64,000 nucleotides of DNA from Owenia fusiformis (taxonomy: Eukaryota; Annelida; Polychaeta; Sabellida; Oweniidae): the NCBI GenBank assembly GCA_903813345.2, contig CAIIXF020000004.1, forward strand, positions 4,793,525 through 4,857,524, written 5' to 3'. The translations under genes were made by a program, and so were the position numbers. Positions 3,656 to 57,495 of this stretch are shown here, piece after piece; positions within the stretch are counted from its first letter, which is position 1, and the number at the start of each line of letters is the position of its first letter. A model generated the notes under the pieces. That model searched no databases. It was not told the origin of the DNA and saw nothing but the letters and a program-made list of their open reading frames with translations.

Positions 3656-3793
3656 ACATCGCTTGAATCCAACAACAGCATCATGGGAGTGTTTATAAAA
3701 GCCCAAAGAGACCCCTTATCATCGCACCAAATATCAGATTCTAACATCACGAAGGCGTCGGGTAATATCATCGGGGCAGGATTTACCACGACT

Positions 3794-3796
3794 TAA
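3794..3796 (+). other. In-frame stop in exon 4 of P450 copy A
   Basis: The codon order ACC ACG ACT TAA GCT ACA is in frame with the downstream MNHPDIQAK segment. The matching codon in copies B, C, D and E is AAA or AAG (Lys). The lesion is a single A-to-T change. Confidence 0.85.
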
Positions 3797-4261
3797 GCTA
3801 CAATCTCTGCGTTTTTTCTTCAACTGATGAATCATCCAGATATACAGGCAAAACTTCAAAAAGAGGTTGATCAAGTAGTTGGCAAAGACCGGGATCCGAG
3901 TATTGACGATAAAGAAAACATGCCGTACCTTCAAGCGACGCTTATTGAAGTATTACGGTATTTGACGCCCGGACCAATCTCTATTCCTCATAAAACCTTA
4001 GTGGACACAAGCATTGAAGGATACGCTATCCCAAAGGGTATACAGGTAGAATATCTGCATATTCACTGCATAGCACCATTTAAACTTCTAGTCCCTGATC
4101 TGGACCCTCTGAAAAAAAGTTTTGTTGTCCGGTACTTTCCCACATAAAATGATTGTACCGTTTGAAAGAACAGATTTCCCTCTTAAAGAAAACACCTCTT
4201 CTATTGATGTAAACAGGGGCAAAAGGCTCCAAAACGGGGTTAGACAAGGTGGCATACTGAA

Positions 4262-9883: not shown

Positions 9884-12800
9884 ATGTTAGTGTACGTTGT
9901 TCTAGGCTGTTTTTCTTTATTACTTTATATTTTTTTCAAAAGATATACGAATGAGAAATCAAGGATTATCGCAAAGATTCCAGGACCCAAGGGAATGCCT
10001 ATCTTGGGGAATGCACTCCAGGTTGATTTAGAGTATATTCACAAGGATTTACTAAGATGGGCTGGAGAGTATGGACCAATCTTTAAGTTAAATTTTGCCG
10101 GGGATTTGGTTGTTGTACTTAACAGCTTCGATGCCATCTACGAAGCTCTAGTGACAAAATCAGAAGATTTTGCAGGTCAGTCATATACGAGGCCCGATCA
10201 GAAAGTAAGTAACCACTGTGAAAATGTCAATTTAATTGAATAAAGTATGGAGAAATAAGAGCAGTTGGTTACTTACTTTCTGATCGGGCCTCGTATTATG
10301 AACGATTGAAATTAGAATTGTACAGCAGATTTCGCAGGTAAGGATTATGAAAGATTATTAGAATTGTACCATTCAATAAAATACAAGTAATATATGCAAT
10401 GCCCGGGATACATTTACCAAGATTCTCCGATCTCGGATGTTTTGCAAGCCTACAATTGCCACATTGTACAGGGTGAGCAAAAAAGGTAACTCAGGCAAAT
10501 GTTACCAACTCAATCATTCAGCATTGGTGAAGTGTCATATTTGGCACAATTTAACCTTGTTTAATATTCCTTTATTCTATAAAGCTCACTTCGGAGGGAA
10601 GTGTATTTCATTTACGCACATAATTGCATCTTTAAGATTGAATTACCTATAAGCATCGCATTCAAGTGAGCTGACTCCATTTGCTTATCTTACAAACACA
10701 CAATGCATATGGCAAGGCAAGTACACGAATAATTTATTGAAAGAAAAGCAAAGAACAATAATTTTTAACTTATTTACAATCTGTCATGCTATAATATTAT
10801 ATCATAAGAAAATCCTGTACCTGACTTACATCTTTATTCAGTCGGAGAGACATGCCATGCACGATGCCTCCATACTTGGAATTGCATTACTGTACAGGGT
10901 GGTCCAAAAAAAAGTGAACCCCTGCAACAGGCTACAATTTTCTTAATACATGCATGAATTGGCTCATATTATCACATGTTGTAGAGAAAGGTCTAAAATT
11001 TTGGTTGATGCCATAATTCATTCTCAGTCTTAAATTTTGAAAAAATTACAAGCGTTTAACAAACATGCCAGAAAATTAGATATTGTACAAAATTTTACAA
11101 ATGTGATTCATGGAAATTGTTGAAACACATTGGATGATCTTCAACAGCTTTCAGTTAGAGATACAATCTAAAACCCTACCATATGACAACAGGGACTCTA
11201 TTCAAGCAGAAAACACATTTCACACTTTCATTGATCATTTTGAAGCATTTTTAACTGTTCAACAGTTCAGGGGTATGTTACCTACACCAACAGTTAGAGG
11301 GGGCCTCTTATGGAAGGAAGTTGCCCCCTGCGACCAGGAATCTGATAACCCCTTCATCAAATATCTTTAAAAATCAAAAGAAAATCCAATATTCATTATT
11401 TTGAGCCATATATCATTAGAATTGGTCCATGATTTACGAAGATATTGACATTTCAAGATCATATAGGGGTATGTTCATGATTTCACTTGAAAATGTTTTC
11501 GTGTTTGGAAGCTTAGCACATCTCTTTGGATCACAATAACTTTGCAACTAACAAATGTAGGATGCTAGTTTTAAGCCATAATGTGCAAGATTTAAAATTG
11601 AACAAAGTCAGAAAATATTAGTTTTTTAAGACTGCAACTTAAAATACTCTCAGGGGAAAGGTGTTAAAGGGTTGAAGAATCGCGGATATTGAAAATCCCA
11701 ATTTGTCCATTTTCAGTAATGTTTGGTTAGGGCTTATAATTTTTGTAAATTTCAAGACTTAGAAAAATGTATGGTACCAACATAAATTTTAGACCTTCCT
11801 CCACAACATGTGAAAATAAAAAATAATTCCTGCAAGTAATAAGGGAAATATGGCCAGTTGCAGGGGTTCACTTTTTTTTGGACCACCCTGTATATTAAAT
11901 TACCATGAATACAACTGCAACTATTTGTGAATTTATGTGAAATCCTCCGTACAAACATTTACGAACTTTTGGAACTTTTGGAACGTTTAGGCGGATAATA
12001 GAATTGGAGTTCATCTGGAAATATCGGAGAAAATATTCATTATGAGCAATACAAAAATGTTTTGATCAACCATGATATATGAAATTCGACTATGTTTTTA
12101 GGAAGACCGAATGACACATTTAGAGTCAAAACATTACAAGGAGGCGATGATGTTATATTTCAAGACTACACGGGTAAAATTAGATACATGAAGAAACTCA
12201 TGCTTCGGGGTCTAAAGATGTACGGCGAGGAACGGTCGAATATCGTAAACATCACCCAAAGTGAAATTAAGCTGTGTATGGATAAATTTGCCGCCAAAAA
12301 CGACGAGTCGTTTATCTATGACGGTGCTGTTGACACAATGCTCATGAAAATTCTTTCAGAAGTGGTAAGTATTGTTTTATGTTTTTAACAATTGTCAAGA
12401 GTATGTTACTATCAAAGCATAGAAACGAGGTAATCTTAGGGAGGCCTTTATAGACTCATTACAGTAATATTGACAACTTTGCAGCACGTCTATATTTAAG
12501 TCATTGTGAATTATTGTTTTATGGATTATGGCGACGGCTTTTGTGAATGGATGTTGGCCTATATGGACTTGGAGACTGGAATTTATCTATCCCACATTTG
12601 AGACTGAATGCTCTATCTTGTATGAGTATTGTATCTACAACTATTTTTGAGATTATGAGTATTGGTTATCAATTTTTTCTTAAACATGTATTGTAATGAC
12701 TTCAGTATGAATGAAATGTCCCTTGGTCTTTTGGTCTTGGATTGTGATATTGGGTCTTGAATGGTGGGGGAAAGGGGATATTAGACATTGTTTCTTTTGA

Positions 12801-20930: not shown

Positions 20931-21591
20931 AATAAACTTGATAAGTAGACGGGGTCCCGTGGCCAGGAGCGCCATTTTATTTCAGGACAGACAATGGAAT
21001 ACAAAGAGCTGCATCCCACAATTGCTGAAGAAGACACAAACAAAGACATCTAATGTTATAGTGATTGTTTAATATGAGTTCATGATTATTTTATGTGGCG
21101 ACTTTAGAGACATTCAAGTGATATCAACCTTTATCTTTTGCTGGAACTTATCAAAGTGATATCCTCCTTTGATCTTACTTTCTTATAGTAACTTTAAAGA
21201 CATTCAAGTGACATCACATGTTTTTCTGTCTTAAGGCATTATTAGTGATTATATAGTTTAGGGTAGTTTGAGCTCGACTTTGTACATAATTTTCTATTGT
21301 TTCTAAAGCATTGTTTGGCTCATAAAGGGCAAATATATAACTTTATTTTTATTCTGTACTTGAATGTTCATTGTTGTATTGTATTGAGTTCCGGAGGGAA
21401 CTTGTGTAGTGCAAACCCCAGATTGCGTAATACTTTCTTTTCCCTTACATTCCCTTGGAGTAACATCTCAGGCGACTGTAGTGAGCGGAGTCAACGCCGC
21501 TCCGTATAATCCCGCAATTAAGTGACGCGCGGGAGAGTCCACCTTCCCCGAATTTTCCCCGCATTCCTGACCTTCGGGAAAAACGTTACAT

Positions 21592-25689: not shown

Positions 25690-25926
25690 ATGTTAGTCTA
25701 CATTCTTTTAAGCTGCTCTGCTTTTTTAGTGTATGTTTTTATCAAAAAATGTACAAATGAGAAATTCAGAATTATTGCAAAAATACCAGGACCTAAAGGA
25801 ATACCAATATTCGTTAATGCACTCCAAGTTGATCTTGAACATATTCACAAAGATTTACTTCGATGGACTGAGGAGTATGGGCCGATCTTCAAGTTGAACT
25901 TTGCTGGGGACTTGGTTGTTGTACTT

Positions 25927-25946
25927 AAAACAGTTATGATGCAATC
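25927..25946 (+). other. 2-nt frameshift in exon 1 of copy C
   Basis: Compared with exon 1 of copies B, D and F, this stretch is longer by two bases, with a few substitutions. Downstream codons (EALVTKS-DFAG equivalent) return only in another frame. Confidence 0.8.
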
Positions 25947-26045
25947 TACGAAGCTCTTGTCACAAAATCAGCAGATTTTGCAGGTCAGTATACATGCGAC
26001 TAGGAATTAATGTTTCGAAATGTTATCGTTTTATTGAACAATCCA

Positions 26046-35010: not shown

Positions 35011-35712
35011 ATGTTATTTTACGTTCTTCTGGCCTGCTTTGCTTTTTTAGTGTATACCTTTTTCCGAAAATACACAAATGAGAAGGCAAGGATAATCGCA
35101 AAAATCCCAGGACCTAAAGGAATACCTATCGTAGGAAATGCACTCCAAGTTGACTTGGAAAATATTCACAAAGATTTACAAAAATGGGCAGAGGAGTATG
35201 GTCCAATCTTCAAGCTGAATTTTGCCGGGGAAATAATAGTTGTACTCAACAGCTTTGATGCCATCTACGATGCTCTTGTCACAAAATCAGTGGATTTTGC
35301 AGGTCAGTACAAATAAAGATAGACGATTCAAATGAAAATGACAATTCAATAAAGAAGTACATTGGTGAGACCTTTGAGTTGAGAAAGGCCCTTATTCTTA
35401 AAGCAATCATTGGGCACACAAAAAGTATATGTGCCCTGGGTCAATGGTCATATGTTATCAACGTCTAACCTTTTTTTATCAAAATAACTAATATTTCATT
35501 TCAATGTTTTTCCTTCCCATTTTAACGGGCCATTTGAATATCAAATCTAAGTTAAAATATAACAATTGCAATACCAGTTAACATATTGTAAGTACAAATT
35601 AACAGAGTAAACATATTTGCAGTCGCTAAAATGTCCCATAAACAAAGCATTTACATATATGTTTTGATCAAAGATTGTCATTGGTTTTAGTCGACGAAAT
35701 AGCTAAATTTGC

Positions 35713-36533
35713 GTTGACAAAAAGTTTGTGTTGTGACATGCGTTGACAAAAAGCTTGTGTTGTGACATGCGTTGACAAAAAGCTTGGGTTGTGACATGCG
35801 TTGACAAAAAGCTTGTGTTCTGACAAGCGTTGACAAATAGCTTGTGTTGTGACATGCATTGATGAAAAGCTTGTGTTGTGACATGCGTTGACAAAAAGCT
35901 TGTGTTGTGACATGCATTGATGAAAAGCTTGTGTTGTGACATGCGTTGACAAATAGCTTGTGTTGTGACATACATTGATGAAAAGCTTGTGTTGTGACAT
36001 GCGTTGACAAATAGCTTGTGTTGTGACATGCATTGATGAAAAGCTTGTGTTGTGACATGCGTTGACAAAAAGCTAGTGTTGTGACATGCGTTGACAAATA
36101 GCTTGTGTTGTGACATGCGTCGACAAAAAACGTGTGTTGTGACGTGCGTTGAAAAAAACCTTGTGTTGCGACATGCGTTGACAAAAAGCTTGTGTTGTGA
36201 CACGTGTTGACAAAAAGCTTGTGTTGTGACACGTGTTGACAAAAAGCTTGTGTTGTGACATGCGTTGACAAAAAGCTTGTGTTGTAACATGCGTTGACAA
36301 ATAACTTGTGTTTTGACATACTTTGAGAAAAAGCTTGTGTTGTGACATGTTTTGACAAAAAGCTTGTGTTGTGACATGCGTTGACAAATAGCTTGTGTTG
36401 TGACATGCGTCGACAAAAAACTTGTGTTGTGACGTGTGTTGAAAAAAACCTTGTGTTGCGACATGCGTTGACAAAAAGCTTGTGTTGTGACACGTGTTGA
36501 CAAAAAGCTTGTGTTGTGACATGCGTTGACAGA
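35713..36533. repeat. 29-bp minisatellite, about 28 copies, with 290-bp higher-order period
   Basis: The unit is acatgcgttgacaaaaagct followed by tgtgttgtg. Two distinctive variants (a cgtcgac unit followed by a gttgaaaaaaacc unit) occur at 36112 and again exactly 290 bp later at 36402, so ten-unit blocks were duplicated. Because 29 is not a multiple of 3 and the minus strand lacks stops, all three minus frames are open, giving false proteins of HVTTQAFCQRMSQHKLF type. It lies in intron 1 of copy D. Confidence 0.9.
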
Positions 36534-37700: not shown

Positions 37701-37963
37701 GTCGAGCAAATGACACCTTCAGAGTTAGAACACTGGTTCAAGAAGACGATGTCCTATTTCAAGACTATACGGATAAAGTCAGATACATGAAGAAACTCAT
37801 GCTCCAGGGCCTCAAGATGTACGGAGAGGAGCGTTCGAATATAGTTAAGATAACCCAAAGTGAAATAAACTTGTGTATGGATAAATTTGCCGCCAAAAAC
37901 AATAACCCGTTCAATTACGACGACGCTGTTGAAACAATGATCTTGAAGATTCTTGCAGAAGTT

Positions 37964-40429: not shown

Positions 40430-40658
40430 TATATATCATGTAACTGAAAGTCTCGTAAGGTGTCGAAAAATAACGAAATTTTTCGAATGTGGCATTCGAT
40501 ATTTACCGAATATAAATAATCTAAATACCGAATGTACAGTCATATAATTAATTGAGTTATACCACTGTGGCTAGTCGATCTATGTGGATGCAGTCATTTA
40601 TATGTAATGTATCGTGGGTACTCGCGTACATTATAGGGAATGGGATCATTGCAAAAAT

Positions 40659-40674
40659 ATGACAGCAAATCGAG
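40659..40674 (+). other. Candidate first mini-exon within the CACTGTG element
   Basis: ATGACAGCAAATCGAG followed by GTAAGTG, a strong donor, ends in phase 1. It is offered only because the open piece at 42909 starts in the matching phase. Confidence 0.2.
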
Positions 40675-41485
40675 GTAAGTGATCTCAGAGTTTCTACTTA
40701 ACATTGTGACTTGAAATATTGCACACATATTCAATATACATAGTATGACAATGGGTGAAAGTTTCAGCTACCATATTCCTGTTATAGGGAAGATATTTGA
40801 AAAACATTTCGTAAACGTCAACATATATGTATAAAATGGATGCACCTATGTATCATTTGGATTCAGAACGGTAACAAATGGATGCTTTAATAAATTATAC
40901 TTTTATCATGATGATTTATTTACTGATGGACAACTGGCCAGATTTTCTTTGTATCCATTGTTTGGATAAACATTCCCCATTCAGTAAAGTAATCAGCCTA
41001 CCCATTACAAGTAGTCTAAAGGCACCCTCATGAAAAATTGAAAATACTATATATAAACCCATCAACTGGAAAATGCCATTACCACCCTTTGTATACGCAG
41101 CTAACGAAAATTGACCGGTACGGGTCAAAAGCTGGACCGGTACGGGTTAACGGTTTTATTTGAATTTAAAACAGCCATAACTTGCTCAATATTGACTTCC
41201 TCGTGTCTAATTTGAAATATATGATGCCTCCCGATGCTTTTAAGTACCCCAATTTTTTACAGATTTTTAAACGGACCAAAACTCTCTAAATGCGCATTCA
41301 TGCTCTTTTCTCTCGAGAACAACTATTTCATTTTCACGATAACTTTTATTTAGTACTTCTAACATATAAGATCTATTTTCCCCATCAAGGTATGATGTAA
41401 ATGACATGCTATTTACATCTTGTGAGTTTCAATGACGCGCGTTTGATTTTATAGAAAATGCCAAACTTTGTGACAAAGAATTTCC

Positions 41486-41556
41486 TCCTGCTTGCAGCGA
41501 GAAGACGGACCGGTTCGGGGCAATAGAACCGGTCCATCTTCTCGCTGCAAGCAGGA
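41486..41556. repeat. 31-bp-stem hairpin with 9-bp loop
   Basis: tcctgcttgcagcgagaaga and ggaccggttc pair with the mirrored right side with one mismatch around gggcaata. Related ggaccggtacgggt repeats sit at 41110-41150. It lies within the CACTGTG element. Confidence 0.75.
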
Positions 41557-41804
41557 TTTCATAACTTATACATTGAATTCCAAGAACTTTTTATTGTGAC
41601 CTACTTTTCGGATGCCATATCTCAAAAACGGTAAGAGTGATCAAAAACAACTTGTCAGTAGGGATTAGCTTTTTTCCAAGGAACATGATTAAAAAAACAG
41701 AGCAAAAATATTCAAGGACGACTGAGAAAATTGAAAAAATGACAAAGTACTGGATTTGACCTAGTTCTTGACCTTTGACCTGGTTTAAACCTGATTACAT
41801 CCAG

Positions 41805-42135
41805 ATCTGGACTTGGACCTGAACTGGACCTTGACTTGGACCTGGACCTGGACTTGGACCTGGAAATGGACTGGACTGGTATTTTTTCAATCTTTTCTTC
41901 ACTTCTCTTGACTTTCTATAAGGCTATCATCAGATCGATTTTTCTCGAAATTTAAAAATCAGTAATTTCTCGGAAACCGGGCGAACTTGGGAAATGGCGA
42001 TGATAGGTCAAATAGACATTATGGATATGCATAAAATGAATGTGGAAATGACTCAATCTGAATAGCAGTTTTAATTTGTGCAGCCAATGTTGACAGACGG
42101 ACGGACCGACGGACGGACCAACGGACGGACGCCTG
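41805..42135. repeat. Hexanucleotide and tetranucleotide simple repeats
   Basis: 41805-41875 is made of ggacct/ggactt units, and 42091-42132 of gacggacg/gaccgacg units. Both are inside the CACTGTG element. Confidence 0.7.
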
Positions 42136-42908
42136 GTCGATCCCTTAGTCTCACTGTGTGAGCCAAAAACTATGGTTTTATCGCTGATACTGTTAATTTG
42201 AAAAAAGGGGTCCATAACATGTAATGATGACAATGGAAACGTTGAAATTAGGTACGCTAATGAAATGAATTCAGAGCAAAAGACCCATCGACCCACTGGA
42301 ATACCCACAAATCAAGTTTCATAGCCTTGCCAAAGTCGGTCTATTTTACTTGTCTTGATTTCTATTATGACTGCCTTGTACCCAAGAGGAAGCCATGTGC
42401 TTTACCGACCCAATGTTTTTGTCGGTAAAATTTGACAAATCAACGACGGCCCTACATTGCCAGACTAGATCTTCGTGCATTTCCATCGCGAATTCATTTT
42501 TGATTTTGAATCAACATTGAATTGCATGATTTCATTTAGACGAGTATTAATGACTGCTTACATTCCAATGTACATTTAATAACATAATATATTGTAACTC
42601 TCAAGAAACACTCGATCAGATCATTGAATTTCAAGTCCTAGACGGGTAGTTTGCTTTTTTTATGCAGGTCAACCTGATAACGTTTTGATTGGTCAATCAG
42701 CCTGAAGTCACACGTTGTGTCCATGTCCATATTGTCAATCAATATGGTTTTGCGATACCCTTAGGTAGCCTAGGTATTATGGGAATCTCGGAACCGCTGA
42801 ATAACTTAGCATAATATCAGCGATGATACATTGGATTGTACAAGGTGGTAATAATTCAAGATCAGATAAGTAAATAAATACCGACTTGGGCAAGGCTACC
42901 AGTTTCAG

Positions 42909-43071
42909 AGCCATTAACATTCCTTGAAGGTGATAATGAGCAGCCAACAGATGGACCATCCGTAAATCTTGATGATTTTGTCAGCTCAGCTGAACGAGCC
43001 TCCAGATTCCTTGAAACAAATGACCATCATTCAAGAATAGTATTATCTATTTACAATTTTTTGAAATCGTG
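42909..43071 (+). other. Candidate captured or element exon (about 54 codons)
   Basis: Open from the acceptor accagtttcag to the donor GTAAGTGG. It reads PLTFLEGDNEQPTDG, then DDFVSSAERASRFLE and HHSRIVLSIYNFLKS. Composition is protein-like (Asp/Glu/Ser-rich, then an amphipathic end) and unlike the surrounding repeats. No family was recognised. It may be an exon of the element's gene or a host exon it picked up. Confidence 0.3.
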
Positions 43072-44341
43072 GTAAGTGGAATTTTTCCAATTACCAATAT
43101 AGCATTATTATTGTTTTCGGACACTGTGGATTAAAATATTGAAAATACACACATTCAAAATGATTCAATTGAAACCTAGCCAGTCTGTTCAATGAATCCA
43201 ATCAGAACGTCTACTAATCCACATGATACATCATAATTAAATTGCTTTTTTAAAGCTGATATTTCATACCATAACTCCAAAAATATTATAGAACGCATTG
43301 TATTTGTATTTTACTTCACACAGACATATTTGTGTATGTGAAATAATTATATTACTTAAATTTTTTATTCCCCATTACAAGGTAAACCTATGGCAAATTA
43401 TACATACCTTCTCACAGCTATGAGCGAGATGATAAAACTGGTCGAGTGAACTCGTTTGAGTTATCTATTCTCTGTAAAAATATCAGAGAATGTGTGTTTA
43501 TAGCGTAGCTTTGGTTTTGTAAATCAATGAAGTATGATATACACGGATGAGTAAATATAGATTATTTAAACAGAAGTGCAAAATTCTTCCATTGAAAAGT
43601 ACAGAGGCGGGTACTCACGAAACATTACATGTGCCTGACTGCATCCACATAGATCGACTAGCCACAGTGTATACGTGCTTTGGGGAAAACAAATTGATTC
43701 GCTGCATCGCATAAATTCATATAAATATCAAATATAAATGCCAACACAAAGAACTAGACGTAGTGTAATTATTTAGCGAATATAAATTGTATGGATTATT
43801 ATATTCGATATTTATTTATTTATTTATAAAATTAATAAACACATATAATATAAACATTCGATAGATTGGGTAAAGGTTTGGTAAATTGTTTGTTTTATTT
43901 GGTATGTTTGGAATATTTAATGTACCGAATAAAGAAACAGTTAAACACCATACAGTTTATGCTGTCGTTGGCTTGTATTGTCTGGAATACTTCTAGAGCA
44001 TTTGTCTTTTGATGCGCCGTCATCGGGTATACTGACATTTATTATATGTCTTCATTCGTACTATGCGTAACATGAATTTTAGATAGGCGGGGTTCAACTA
44101 ACTGACGACCACCCTCATATCAAAGGCCTTGCCGAGATGACGTATAAAGCTGGAAGAGCGATGTCAGCAGGCAATGGCGAAGAACTAGACATATTTCCAT
44201 GGCTACGGTTTTTCGGAAATCAGAATTATAAACTACTGAAGGAGTCATGTAGATTAAAAGCTACTGTAATTGGGGAAATGCGGACAGAATGTGAGGTATA
44301 TTTAGATTTATATTAGTGAGAGTTATAGTTGATGTGCTACA

Positions 44342-44643: not shown

Positions 44644-45083
44644 CTACAAAATGTTCATTGTACGTATAACACTTCTGAATTTCTTTGCTTTACATACGTT
44701 GCATTGTATTCTCTAATACACATTTCAATCTTATCTTCACCATACACATCTTGCTCCAATCTAATCATACATAAACATTGTTTTAATTCTTCACATTTTT
44801 CAAATTTCAATAAATTCTTGTCAAACGCGTGAATTTCTATTTTTGAATTTTATTTTGCCTACAGTCGTTTAAATCGATGGCAACCTGGTGTTATTGCCTG
44901 ACTAGTTTTATTTATTTCTGTACAGTGACAATTAAATTAGTCAATAGATCGATAAACGAAATAAACCTCACATTCCTCGATACGCTGCGTATTATATTAC
45001 TTACCATGCATTACTCCTTAACCATACAGTTCATTCTTAATCATACATTACATTCTCTGTCATAATTTGCATTCTTTATGGTA

Positions 45084-46539
45084 CAGTCTGTTACACTGCT
45101 TCAAAGGCAAGCAGTTAAACTTAATATATAAGAAATCTAAATAATATTGTGCAATAATATAAAGAAAAATATATTCATATTGCACACGAATGACATTTGT
45201 ATATGTCGGGTTGCTTGTAAATTGGCCCATAAAGTCTGTAACCTCTTATATTTTGATGCTTCTCTACCTTGTTTAATTCTCAAAAAATAACACGGCGGAC
45301 GGACCTCAAATTACAAGAGGGCACATGCCCATTGCACTAAACACTAACAAATCTTATATATACAAATGCCATTCGTGTACAATATGAATATATTTAATGA
45401 ATAAATAATGATAGGCCATTCAATATGGTGAAATTCTGCACGAGTTGGACAGAATGTTTTACAAAGCACGAACCGAAGGTGAGTGCATTTGTACTAACAT
45501 TCTGTCCAACTCGTGCTGAATTTCACCATATTGAATGGCCTATCATTATTTATTCCGATTCAAACATAAAAATTAGTAAAAGCCGTGTCTGTGTGGAACG
45601 GGCATGAAGGAAGAATTCGCATGCCAAGATTCTGAAGTCGGCCGGAAAAATTTTAGAATTTGTTTGGGCTGTTCTATTTTACTCCCCGTTTTCGATTTTA
45701 TACGGTGCATGCAAACATGGGGTGTTGATAAAATAAAAATAAATATAGAGGGAGGAGGGAGTAAAAAAGAACAGCTATCCCCGGACAGAGCCCCAGATGT
45801 GCAGCTGAGATGTGACGTCGCTCAAAACAATGCAAATTGCAGATTGAATAGAGCATGGTCGTGCATCTATGCAGAATTCAAACATGACCGTGCTCTATTC
45901 GAATTTCTCAACCAATCAGAATGCAGCATAGCCAATATAGAACGTTCTCTAATTCTCCATAGATGCACGACTATGCTCTATTCAATCTGCAATTTGCATT
46001 GTTTTGAGTGACGTCACATCTCAGCTGCACATCTGGGGCTCTGTCCGGGGATAGCTGTTCTTTTTTACTCCCTCCGTAACTACTGTAACTATTTAACTAT
46101 GGCTGACTTCAAGTTTATACACCGTATAAAATCTAAAACGGGGAGTAAAATAGAACAGCCCAAACAAATTCTAAAATTTTTCCGGCCGACTTCAGAATCT
46201 TGACAGCATGCGTATTCTTCCTTCATGCCCGTTCCACAGACACGGCTTTTACTAATTTTTATGTTTGAATCGGAATAAATAATGATAGGCCATTCGGTTC
46301 GTGCATTTGTACTAACATTCTGTCCAACGAGTGCTGAATTTCACCATATTGAATGGCCTATCATTATTTATTCCTTAATTAGAGAACGTTCTATATTGGC
46401 TATGCTGCATTCTGATTGGTTGAGAAATTCGAATAGAGCACGGTCATGTTTGAATTTTCTATATATTATTGCACAATATTATTTAGATTTTTTATATTTC
46501 AGGTATAACTTCTTGCCTTTGAAGCAGAGTAACAGACTG
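45084..46539. mobile_element. 1.46-kb nested palindrome (foldback element cluster)
   Basis: Outer arms of about 90 bp (CAGTCTGTTACACTGCTTC at left, its inverse at right) are flanked by TA. Inside are further inverted pairs: 45166-45202 with 45358-45394; 45397-45700 with 46110-46290 (gataggccattcaatatgg, gactgaagtcggccggaa-type, taaaacggggagtaaaa); and 45750-45900 with 45960-46075 (cccggacagagccccaga). Several open frames across it are by-products. It lies in intron 3 of copy D. Confidence 0.75.
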
Positions 46540-46910
46540 TACATTACATTATTTCCACACATAGTATCCTTTACCATAACTAACATTTGCATCATACATT
46601 ACATCATCTACTATTCGTCACATTCCCTAATGGATTACATTATATATCACACACATTATCGTTTATCAAGGCTTGCATTCTCTACCATCGATTTTGTTTA
46701 TTCTTTATCATACATTACACTCATGTCCATATAGTGCATTCTTTGGCATTCGTTGCATTTGTAAGTACTGTCATACATTACAGTCTTGGTAATCCATTAC
46801 TTCATTCATAATGATTAATTTACTATAATATAAAGATTGTATTGTTTAACTCAGTGAATATTTAATTTCGGATTGTTACAGAAATCACTTGAATCCAACC
46901 ACAGCGTCAT

Positions 46911-49413
46911 CACGGTGTTATAGCATGACAGATACGCCACCTCTGAAAACGAGGTTAGTCGTATACGATCACTGATTTATCCAATAAAATGGCCACGATG
47001 AAACAGAAAGCTAAGGTAGGTGCATTATGTTCTACTACTGCGTATCAATAAAAGCATGAAAGATTTATGTAAGCGGCGCATTCGGTGATGCATTCAGTAA
47101 TGTTTATTTTGAACGTAGTCTTTGCAAATCGACGCCCATGGATAACATGAAATAAGCGAAAAACTGTCGAGTTTGAAATTCAAAACTTCATAAAATTTAG
47201 TAATTTGTTTCTTTTCTTCGTTAGGACATGCTCTACATTGCGCAACAACCTTGGTGTATATAAATGTAACCTACATACGATCATACAAAGCCAATTAAGC
47301 ATTGTAAACCACTTAATATGTTCTACTCAAGCCATAATAATGTATTTTGAATTTGCGGATACGCCAAAAATTGATAGACAGTTACGCGAACCTCGTTCAT
47401 ACTGTCATATATGTAAAACCGAATCATTTCATATCGCTTGTGATCCAAAATTGAAATGTTTTTCAACCGGATTTGAGTTTTGTAAGCTATAATAGATGAA
47501 ATCGTATTATAACCACCTTGCAGGGCCTGTTCTAGGGGTTTTAGTACTAGTTGAGAAGGCATTTAAATTGCTATATTGACGTGAGCAATATTGTGTCGGG
47601 CGTTAATGACTTTAGTCGAGAAATAATGATATTATTCGCCCGGCTATGTTTCCCGGAAAAAGTGATATCGTTCAGTGCGTAAGATTTTCTATTTCAAAGG
47701 ACAAGGTGCAATTATTGGCAAATATCCCTATGGTCAAAATGAATCATTCGTAGGTGTAACATGAAGAATAAAATGTCATATAATACTTTGGAAAATATTA
47801 AAGTGCTCGGACACACATAAGCTGAGATAGGGATCATTTCGTTCAGTAAGGTTGTATTGACTTATATGGGGCTGTGCACCATTGACTTAACATGAGGATA
47901 TCAGCAGATCCCAATAGAGGCCATTGGTTTCCATTGATTATCACAGAAATACCAAAAATACACTATGACCTGAATCAATTGCAAACTTAATAATTTCACA
48001 ATGCGACACAAATGGTTTATCTCATCAAATGTGCAAATATGAAGTTTGCAATTGCGATTCAGGTCATACTTAAAATTAAAAGATTGTACATTTTTTCATC
48101 ATTTTTTCCCCTACAAAATGGCTATAGAAAAATGCTCCAAAAACAACTTTTACACTTATCAAATATCATACAAGTTTGTAAAACCAAAGATTATACTATT
48201 ATATTTCATTATGTAGTAACATATTTGGATAAGATGCAGGGATGCGTAGGATGTAAATGGATTTTGACAGACACAAAAATACTTCCTGGTTTGGAATCTA
48301 TGCCTCTACACTTCATGATTGAATTATGACCCTAATAAGTGGCCTATACATCAATACAGTGCTGAATATAGGTCAACAAGATACTAGTGTGCATATAAAT
48401 GTAATAATTGAAGCAGAATACTCATTTTGAAAAATCAGATGAATTATTTTTTCCCATGGGGAGATCCCAATGGAGGGTATATAAGGTCCTTTGCTATTTC
48501 AGCCCTGGGCATTAACGGTGGTAATAATGGTAATAACGTCATTTCTGCGGCCCTTGGTCCAATGTTTCACTATATTGCCCGCAGAAATGACGTTATTGTA
48601 CTATTATGAAGATGGTGACATAAACAGCTGAATATGATTTGTAATAATGGTAATATATGTCTAATGTCACTTATGACATCATCAATTAATTTGGAGTTGT
48701 TTTCTTCCGTCGCCTGTTCGTTGTTACTAATTTCTTCCTTTGCCTCTTCATTACAATCATTTTCACTTTCATTGGCTTTCGCTATTTTTTCCTTGCCCTA
48801 TAGAGGCTCAAGCAAGAGCGTCTCTTGCGAGTCCTGAAAACAAATATAGGCAGTTCACACATAGAGAGCTATCCATCTAGGGACCTTGACTTGACAGGAA
48901 CTTGCATGTAACCGTCCGCTAACATCTAATGTAAAACTAATACAATGCGTTGCTGTCCATAAAAAAGCATGCGATACATACGTATCTGTCTAACGACCTT
49001 GCGATTGAAACCTTATTATCTACAATATTTACCACATTTCTGTTCTGCATTTGTCATTTTATGGCTTGTTTATACACAGTTTACGTACAGTTAGTATTTT
49101 GAGTGGCTCTGAGGCACATATACTGAGAAAACACGAAAAAGGACTAAAAATTATGAACTTCGAAATCTCAGCTGGGTAGGTTTACAGCTTATATTCTGCT
49201 TCTTGTAGACCACACGACAGATTTAACTCAATCTTTATAACCATTCACATATGCATCACCGAATGGAACTAGTTGAAAAGGATAGCTTATCTGTGAATCT
49301 TGCCTACAGGCGAAAAAGAGGACATGCTGTCTTTCCCGTCCGCCATTTTTTGTTATCGTTACCGCAAAATTTGGCCAATTGCCTTGTCGTATCTGTCATG
49401 CTATAACACCGTG
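46911..49413. mobile_element. 2.5-kb Transib-like element inserted in exon 4 of copy D
   Basis: 26-bp perfect terminal inverted repeats start CACGGTGTTATAGCATGAC. The exon sequence GTCAT is duplicated at 46906-46910 and 49414-49418. The CACGGTG end and 5-bp duplication match Transib elements as known from the family. No transposase was recognised; the longest protein-like piece is a short frame at 47340-47492 with SYCHICKTESFHIAC, possibly a zinc-binding scrap. It is therefore most likely a non-autonomous copy. Confidence 0.85.
48523..48597. repeat. Short inverted repeat within the Transib-like element
   Basis: ataacgtcatttctgcgg is followed about 30 bp later by ccgcagaaatgacgttat. The stem contains the CRE-like core TGACGT. 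Confidence 0.6.
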
Positions 49414-50569
49414 GTCATGGGAGTGTTCATAAAAGCCCAGAGAGACCCCTTAACACCACACCAAATATCAGATTCTAACATTATTGAGGTGTCAGGGAAT
49501 CTCATTGGTGCAGGATTAACCACGACAAAGGGCACGATCTCTGGTTTCTTTCTTCTACTAATGAACCATCCAGATATTCAAGTAAAACTTCAAGAAGAAG
49601 TTGACAAAGTAGTTGGCAAAGACCGGAATCCAAGTGTTGACGATAAAGATGACATGCCGTACCTTCAAGCGACGCTTATTGAAGTGTTACGTTATTTGTC
49701 CCATGCACCAATTGCTGTCCCGCATAAAACAATGGTAGACACAAGCATTGCAGGATACCATATCCCAAAGGGAATACAGGTTCTACGTATTATTTAATTC
49801 TTCATACTTTTATGATGACAGATTTAAGATTATAGTAAAGAAGACCACTATTACATATTTACAATTTTCAAATATCGAGTGTCTTTAATATTATTATATC
49901 AATTCACCAACAGCCGGGGTTTTATAGGTAAATCTCCATCTTTGTAAAGGAAGACAAGTTGACACTTGGTTAGAATGGAACAAATAAAAATATAATTTAT
50001 GCTTGCTTTAAGGTTTGGACGAACATATTTGCGATGCACCATGATCCCTCATTGTTTCCTGATCCTTGGCAGTTTAAGCCAGAACGTTGGTTGGATGATG
50101 ACGGTAAACTGGTATCTTTGGAGGAACGAAACAAGTCAGCAATTCCCCTTATCATGAATTAAATATTAATCTTAATTTTAATCCGATTAGCCTATTTGAG
50201 TAAATTTTCGGATAACTTGTTATAGACCCTCAGGCCTACCACAAGCTCCTCACAAAGCAAATGAAAAAAAACACAGAACAAGATCGTTTCAATACACTCG
50301 CTTAAAAACGATATCTGTTACAAGGGAATTTTCATTTAAAAATGTTTATTCATTTCAGAGCTATCTCATTTGGAGCTGGCCGACGTGTTTGTGTCGGGGA
50401 ACAATTTGCAAGAACCAGATTATTCCTATTCTGTGCTACATTGTTGCAGAAATTCTCGATCAGTCCACCAGATGGTTCTCAAAGTCCGTCACCTGACCCA
50501 CGTGACTTTCCTCTGGGAATAGTACTCCATCCTTTGCCATTTCAAATAAAAGCAATAGCGAGACAATAG

Positions 50570-55260: not shown

Positions 55261-55338
55261 TCAATTGCCCAGTATTGATTATGCATATGTCATTAACGGT
55301 GCAGCCGAACAATATCCTGGTTGTTAACATTGCAGAAA

Positions 55339-55370
55339 TAGCTTGATTTCAATCACAGCGTCGTTTTTAA
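55339..55370 (+). other. Nonsense codon and 8-nt deletion in exon 4 of copy E
   Basis: AAA TAG CTT replaces AAA TCG CTT (TAG at 55339-55341). After agcgtc at 55362 the eight bases atgggggt found in copy C are missing. Confidence 0.85.
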
Positions 55371-57495
55371 AAGCCCAAAGAGACCCCTCAACACCACACC
55401 AAATATCAGATTCCAACATCATAAAGTCATCAACGGATCTCATTGGTGCGGGGTTTACCACGACTAAAGGCACAATCTCTGGGTTGTTTCTTCTACTGAT
55501 GAAACATCCAGATATCCAAGACAAACTACAAGAAGAGGTAGACAAAGTTGTCGGTAAAGACCGGAATCCGAGTGTTGACGATAAAGAAAACATGCCATAC
55601 CTTCAAGCGACGCTTATCGAAGTGTTACGTTATTTGTCACACGTGCCAATTGCTGTACCCCATAAAACTTTGGTAGACACGAGTGTTGCAGGTTATGATG
55701 TTCCAAAGGGTACACAGGTAATACTCACACTATATTTTCTAAATGATAAATGTGTATGGCGTTTAGATAAATATTAAACATATTTGATAGAAATAAAGAA
55801 CGGTCGTTTTTTAAAACATAATTCACTATTGTAATAGTTGTATGTACTTACTTTTCCGAAGGTCTGGACGAACATATTTGCGATGCACCACGATCCCTTA
55901 TTGTTTCCCGATCCTTGGCAGTTTAAGCCAGAACGTTGGTTGGATGATGATGGCAATCTGGTCTCTTTGGAGGAACGAAATAAGTTAGTTGTTATCTCAG
56001 TATATTATATGTCTGTTGTATATTTATATATTTTCAAATCAATTTCTAATACGTCGCCTGAAATATGTATCCTGTATTTACCATTCGCTTTGACGTCCGA
56101 GTCGTCATACTCTCAAGGAAACATTCAAGCATTCATTGAATGACCTTTTTGACATGCATTAATGTGTTATTTTTTACAAGAAATCGTTGATCTATTTCAG
56201 AGCTATATCATTTGGAGCAGGGCGACGTGTCTGTGTCGGGGAACAGTTAGCAAGAACCAGATTATTCCTGTTCTGTGCTACATTGTTGCAGAAATTCACG
56301 ATTTTTCCACCAGATGGCGCTCAAAGTCCGTCACCTGACCCACGTGACTTTCCTCTCGGGATTGTACTCCACCCTCAGCCATTTCGAATCAAAGCAAAAG
56401 TGAGACAAAAAATGGACAAGGTTGATAGTTCGTAACCATACAAAGACATTTCTAAAAAATGTGCAAGTTTTGGAGGAAATCCTAGTATACTAACAATAGA
56501 TACTTTTTACAAATCCCCGAATTGTCCCTATTCAAATGTGACATTTTTTTACTTTATTCAAATGCGACACGTTTAAATAATGCGTGTTCCTTTGACAACG
56601 AGGCAAATATTGTTGTCAACTAGGTAAGAAATTGTCAGTCAGGCAACTATCGTTGGCTTTGCGAACATTTTGACCTGTCTATGCTGCATGAAATGAACGC
56701 ATTCGTATTTGATACATTTATCTAGAGCCCAGTTCTGTTTTTAGTTACCATATACTCTGCCACCATTTCACTTTTAACCAAAGAGCTTAATAAGTAATTT
56801 GATGCAAAAAGTAATGCAACTATTTTTTGTTGAATTTATTGCCACCAAGGTGTGCTTGTATATTTTAAATTCACTGACCCATTTATATAGTTAACGCGAA
56901 CTCCTGCTCCGTAGCAGTAACTGTGCTAACATAAAATGAATTAATATAAGTTTAACATTGACACGTCTTATATCAAACATAGTCCAGAAAACGGCATACT
57001 CATCAAAATACATTGAGCGTTTGTTTACTTGAAAGATAGTTATATAGACCACTCTGCCCTAGATATCAATCATGTATTTCAAGTGTTTGTGCAACCTTGG
57101 TATTTTGCCAGGCCGCGCTGGGAACAATTTACTAAAAGCTGTGTCTTTTACAGGCAGAGAGTGAAGGAAATAATCGAGAAACAGACAAAAACATTACGGT
57201 TTTATTGAAAGAAAGTAATGATTTTATGAAATTGAAATATGATGCATATTTGAAAGATAACAAACACACAGTGTCCGGAATGGTTACATGTGTGTCAAGT
57301 CAGTTATTGTGGCTTGTAGTTAAATGCAATACACAGTATGTTTTTTGGCTCATTTCAGAAACATGACTCATTTTGCAGAATTAGAAATAAGCTTTTTGCA
57401 GATGAGCACACACTTTTAGATCCGCTCCTGTGTCTGGGTATGTGCATTTCACAATAAATTAGGTATACGTGTTAAACACAGCTGCAAAGAAGATT

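Follow-up and report, generated by a model that had tools for sequence, protein, structure and literature searches.

The T3 element and its site in a P450 gene

The window analysed here is a whole stretch of 64,000 nucleotides from Owenia fusiformis (assembly GCA_903813345.2, contig CAIIXF020000004.1, positions 4,793,525 to 4,857,524, forward strand). It holds a tandem cluster of cytochrome P450 genes, one of which, gene D, is interrupted in its fourth exon by an element that we call T3. Gene D lies on the plus strand and has six exons, at 35011-35302, 37701-37963, 44083-44295, 46882-49779, 50013-50134 and 50359-50569, the last of which includes the stop codon and carries what we take to be the haem-binding motif. 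All five introns start with GT and end with AG. Exon 4 is the one split by T3 and measures 390 nt when the insert is left out.

T3 (46911-49413, 2503 bp, no strand assigned) is apparently a non-autonomous CAC..GTG transposon, recognised from its ends, from the duplication that flanks it and from six-frame searches against Pfam and PDB. Inverted-repeat analysis gave a 26-bp terminal inverted repeat at the left end (46911-46936, plus strand) and the same 26 bp at the right end (49388-49413, minus strand), both opening with CACGGTG. These repeats are the outermost and identical part of slightly longer arms, 46911-46939 and 49385-49413, in which 28 of 29 positions are complementary; perfect 26-bp ends starting with CACGGTG had already been described in an earlier account of this DNA made from its letters (the sequence-only reading). 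The same account reported a duplication of the exon bases GTCAT, and the two copies are indeed present at 46906-46910 and 49414-49418, neither with an assigned strand. The span that it gave, 46906-49418, is right if both copies of GTCAT are counted, whereas the element proper runs from 46911 to 49413.

With up to 3 mismatches allowed, the first 25 bases of the T3 end occur in the window only at the two ends of T3, whereas 100 shuffles gave 0.00 occurrences on average. When CAC-starting inverted ends flanked by a 5-bp direct repeat were compared with 40 Markov-simulated windows, allowing up to 2 mismatches, T3 reached 30 bp, the upper limit of the scan, and the best simulated values were 8-16 bp. 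Further inside the element, comparison of common words with shuffles revealed a 15-bp subterminal inverted repeat, with its left copy at 47079-47093 (plus strand) and its right copy at 49251-49265 (minus strand), 168 and 148 bp in from the ends. It is the longest word common to the two 200-bp end regions, 15 against 6-12 in 300 shuffles that preserve base composition only. Also within T3 are a 105-bp and an 84-bp palindrome, both imperfect.

Removal of T3 together with one GTCAT leaves an exon 4 of 390 nt, or 130 codons, preceded by AG and followed by GT, so that the open exon predicted by the sequence-only reading is recovered. Over the whole of gene D the same removal gives a stop-free frame of 496 residues, whose product aligns with the Pfam family p450 from position 2 to position 461 of 462 (E = 1.5e-101) and has CYP17, CYP2 and CYP1 proteins as its closest solved structures.

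The corresponding site can be seen without an insertion in three paralogs. In genes A, B and C, exon 4 is ungapped across the position of T3, reading AGCGTCATGGG in B and C and AGCATCATGGG in A, with one copy of the pentamer. Since the paralogs carry the pentamer once, a single insertion accompanied by a 5-bp duplication is supported, and these sites, taken with the unbroken 496-residue P450, uphold the earlier proposal of one clean insertion into a coding exon. T3 is therefore a clean gene disruption for which uninterrupted paralogous sites lie within the same 64 kb. What the sequence-only reading observed proved correct in all particulars that were compared.

Predicted consequences for gene D and timing of the insertion

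With T3 in place, the gene D frame enters the element by four codons and stops at a TAG at 46921, giving 269 residues in all. The haem-binding cysteine and, as we read the protein, the I and K helices all lie beyond this point, and this haplotype is therefore expected to carry a null allele of gene D.

Splicing of T3 out of the transcript as an intron was considered as a way to restore the frame. The four GT or GC donors that precede the first in-frame stop, combined with 21 AG acceptors, yielded six pairs that keep the frame and are free of stops. The best of these donors scores 5 of 9, no more than the weakest of the native donors of gene D (range 5-8), and the acceptor that goes with it is poor (2 of 13), while the best acceptor (8) pairs solely with a GC donor scoring 3. 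Judged from these scores, rescue of gene D by splicing would be unlikely.

Apart from T3, the six exons of gene D showed no lesion. The pairwise ratio of nonsynonymous to synonymous substitution rates (dN/dS) of D over exons 2-6, with one or two intron bases included in the codons at the borders of exons 2 and 6, is 0.27 against A, 0.20 against B and 0.14 against C. Gene D was therefore constrained for most of its history. The insertion of T3 is probably recent, a timing that fits because D shows no other lesion and its dN/dS is low.

Repeats also lie in two introns of the same gene. Nested inverted repeats are clustered at 45081-46542, in the intron directly before exon 4, and intron 1 contains a 29-bp tandem repeat in about 28 copies (35710-36531).

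Coding content, companion elements and transposase family

In searches run without a known Transib transposase as positive control and without a check that Pfam or PDB contains one, so that old remnants may escape them, T3 translated in six frames (X at stops) matched no Pfam family in any of the six. Against PDB, four of the six frames had no match and the other two nothing better than E = 1.3; these matches, to iron superoxide dismutase (E = 1.3) and ribosomal protein eS8 (E = 1.9 and 2), were judged to be due to chance. Each frame holds 44-59 stops, and no stretch between stops is longer than 113 aa. As no coding match is recognisable, T3 looks non-autonomous, with a transposase that would be supplied from elsewhere.

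Comparison of T3 with the remainder of the window gave four matches only, of 16-23 bp (E 0.13-0.45). Bases 8-23 of the T3 end recur exactly at 10779-10794 (16 bp, BLAST E = 0.13), there without the heptamer CACGGTG; this may be a chance match or a decayed end. Exact end words of T3 had no occurrence in viral_contigs or genome_contigs, and those of T2, a companion element described below, had none in viral_contigs; since these collections do not consist of animal genomes, the result says little. The same is true of a search with the whole of T3 against phages, which gave no match.

Two companion elements were found by scanning for CAC..GTG ends with 5-bp repeats. T2 (40563-43669, 3107 bp, no strand assigned) is situated in intron 2 of gene D and flanked by the duplication TATAC. 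T1 (2070-2596, no strand assigned) is a 527-bp fold-back element in gene A, between its third and fourth exons, with the duplication CTGCA. A second scan, in which neither the first bases nor the repeat length was preset (2-10 bp allowed) and which used exact 12-base seeds within 8 kb, returned 60 inverted pairs of at least 14 nt, many of them overlapping. A flanking repeat of at least 4 bp was present in three, namely T1, T2 and T3. All three elements start with CAC and have a duplication of exactly 5 bp, and the 5-bp duplication is reproducible in this cluster.

T3 is likely to be a non-autonomous Transib-type DNA transposon. This assignment is plausible but unproven, and is based on the length of the duplication and the first bases of the ends. 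The CMCT group has mostly CA..TG ends and duplications of 2-5 bp (PMC12730594). The sequence-only reading had taken CACGGTG plus a 5-bp duplication as the Transib signature; these traits are consistent with Transib, and the 5-bp length points to it, but they are insufficient, as CAC..GTG ends are a trait of Chapaev and occur in EnSpm too (PMC4079192, PMC12730594). Duplication length is more informative. CAC ends with 5-bp duplications are reported for Transib and for RAG-like (RAGL) elements (PMC7204232, PMC4411706, PMC8355894), and T3 has both. Transib or RAGL is favoured because the duplication is 5 bp in all three elements of the window.

The same length bears on the proposal that a Chapaev or EnSpm (CMC) transposase moves T3 and made an unusual 5-bp duplication. 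The ends would suit such an enzyme: CAC..GTG is described as invariable in Chapaev (PMC4079192), a trait that T3 has, and it is found in fungal EnSpm families (PMC12730594). Chapaev duplications, however, are generally 3-4 bp (PMC4079192) and those of the fungal EnSpm families 3 bp (PMC12730594), and neither these nor the 3-bp duplication of EnSpm/CACTA is seen here, where all three elements have 5 bp. We consider this origin unlikely.

RAGL elements are not separated from Transib by the duplication, and T3 could in principle derive from a RAG1L-RAG2L transposon instead of a Transib without RAG2L. The CAC start and the 5-bp duplication are common to T3 and RAGL, and non-autonomous RAGL copies are known in an oyster and in several deuterostomes (PMC7204232). 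The sequence of the ends speaks otherwise, since the protostome consensus CACTWMCAAACKTYKBB (PMC7204232) is matched at 7 of 17 positions and the AAA at positions 8-10 is absent. Convergent RAG1L and RAG2L genes were not found in the six frames of T3 with Pfam and PDB, as would also be expected of a non-autonomous copy. A RAGL ancestry of this kind appears highly improbable.

A further explanation places T3 in some other superfamily able to make 5-bp duplications, for example hAT5, or in an undescribed one, and we regard it as very unlikely. The ends of hAT elements usually begin with CAG or TAG, which counts against that candidate. The CAC..GTG ends are better fitted by CMCT, although hAT5 elements with 5-bp duplications do exist (cited in PMC12730594).

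Several observations weigh against the Transib assignment itself. A Transib or RAG1-like transposase was not found in the six frames of T3 with Pfam and PDB, nor in T2, whose six frames matched no Pfam family. A GC bias is reported for the target-site duplications of Transib and ProtoRAG (PMC8289069), and the target sites of T1-T3, with 6 of 15 G/C, near the window mean of 36%, show none, though three elements are too small a sample for a verdict. Among the papers searched, none mentions both "Transib" and CACGGTG in the text, although ends are often printed in figures, beyond the reach of such a search. T1 opens with CACTGGT, a poor heptamer of the recombination signal sequence (RSS) kind, and T1, T2 and T3 have little in common past CAC, so that they may represent three unrelated families. 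Moreover, T3 taken alone may have a 4-bp duplication and one extra G at one end; because the ends are symmetric and two companion elements agree, 5 bp is the better reading.

T2 contains an open stretch of 65 aa (42878-43072) that ends at a donor-like GTAAGT. A PDB search confined to these 65 aa gave three weak matches, the best to pseudomurein endoisopeptidase (E = 0.0068), which were judged to be chance.

Relation to known systems and state of the cluster

Among described elements, Hztransib of Helicoverpa zea resembles T3 in its CAC start, its 5-bp duplication (GCTCG in its case) and its position at a P450 locus (PMC1852546, PMC7204232). It differs in being 3518 bp long, as opposed to 2503 bp, and in lying in a P450 promoter region and not in a coding exon. 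Transposon insertions are known at P450 loci of H. zea, exons included (PMC1852546). Symmetric ends, as in T3, are reported for most Transib families (PMC8289069), while T3 differs from Transib in encoding no recognisable transposase. RAGL and ProtoRAG share the CAC start and the 5-bp duplication and depart from T3, in which no RAG1L or RAG2L was found, by the AAA at positions 8-10 and by a protostome consensus that fits T3 poorly. Chapaev and EnSpm (CMC) elements are alike in their CAC..GTG ends and unlike in their duplications of 3-4 or 3 bp.

The heptamer of the V(D)J signal, CACAGTG, is one base away from the CACGGTG of T3. In a recombination assay with RAG1/2, CACGGTGTT ranks second among the signals with a TT spacer, at 0.925 (PMC9723617), and RAG1/2 thus recombines it well; CACGGTGTT corresponds to the first nine bases of the T3 end. 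The end of T3 is accordingly compatible with RAG in that assay, which is no proof that RAG or Transib moved T3. Unlike a V(D)J signal, the CACGGTG of T3 is a transposon end and does not belong to a receptor locus.

For the Transib-type element that we favour, the ends, the duplication, the site in exon 4, the broken frame, the uninterrupted sites of the paralogs and the lack of a recognisable transposase in T3 are observed directly; we infer cut-and-paste movement, a Transib-type enzyme, a recent date and loss of function. A transposase from another locus would cut at the CACGGTG ends of T3, and these would be joined, 5 bp apart, to either strand of exon 4 in gene D. Repair of the gaps would create the GTCAT duplication, and the reading frame of gene D now runs into the element and stops at the TAG at 46921, with probable loss of function. 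A probable Transib-type family and two companions would in this way be added to a P450 cluster, and the case would gain in importance with the discovery of the transposase and proof of its activity.

The pentamer that T3 hit in gene D is also affected in gene E, where 8 bp are missing in the region 55336-55375 and the gap starts inside it. By a rough estimate, about 3% of random 8-bp deletions in an exon of about 390 bp would overlap the pentamer, and it is possible that the gap is an excision scar. A broader proposal holds that a RAG-related transposase, active now or lately, has hit the P450 cluster repeatedly, the gap in gene E being what an excised sister insertion left behind. Behind the proposal stands the number of CAC..GTG elements with a 5-bp duplication, three within 64 kb, of which gene D holds two. 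We find it very unlikely; if it were true, the ends of T3 would be a natural substrate to test the closeness of Transib ends to V(D)J signals.

Several further genes of the cluster look broken too, as far as their coding frames are concerned, by lesions of other kinds. In gene A an in-frame stop interrupts exon 4 (3656-4045), exon 1 of gene C (25690-25982) is split over two frames, and for gene E, which also has the 8-bp gap, exon 1 was not found and, of exon 2, no more than the final 18 residues were. Five genes in the window have an exon 4, and B is the only one that is free of stops and frame changes over exons 1-6. Rfam, searched with the whole window at gathering scores, gave no match. 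Finally, direct repeats of 300 nt, 98% identical, occur at 21209 and 24816 with an open frame of 809 aa between them, and the segment 21209-25115 is a possible long terminal repeat (LTR) retroelement.
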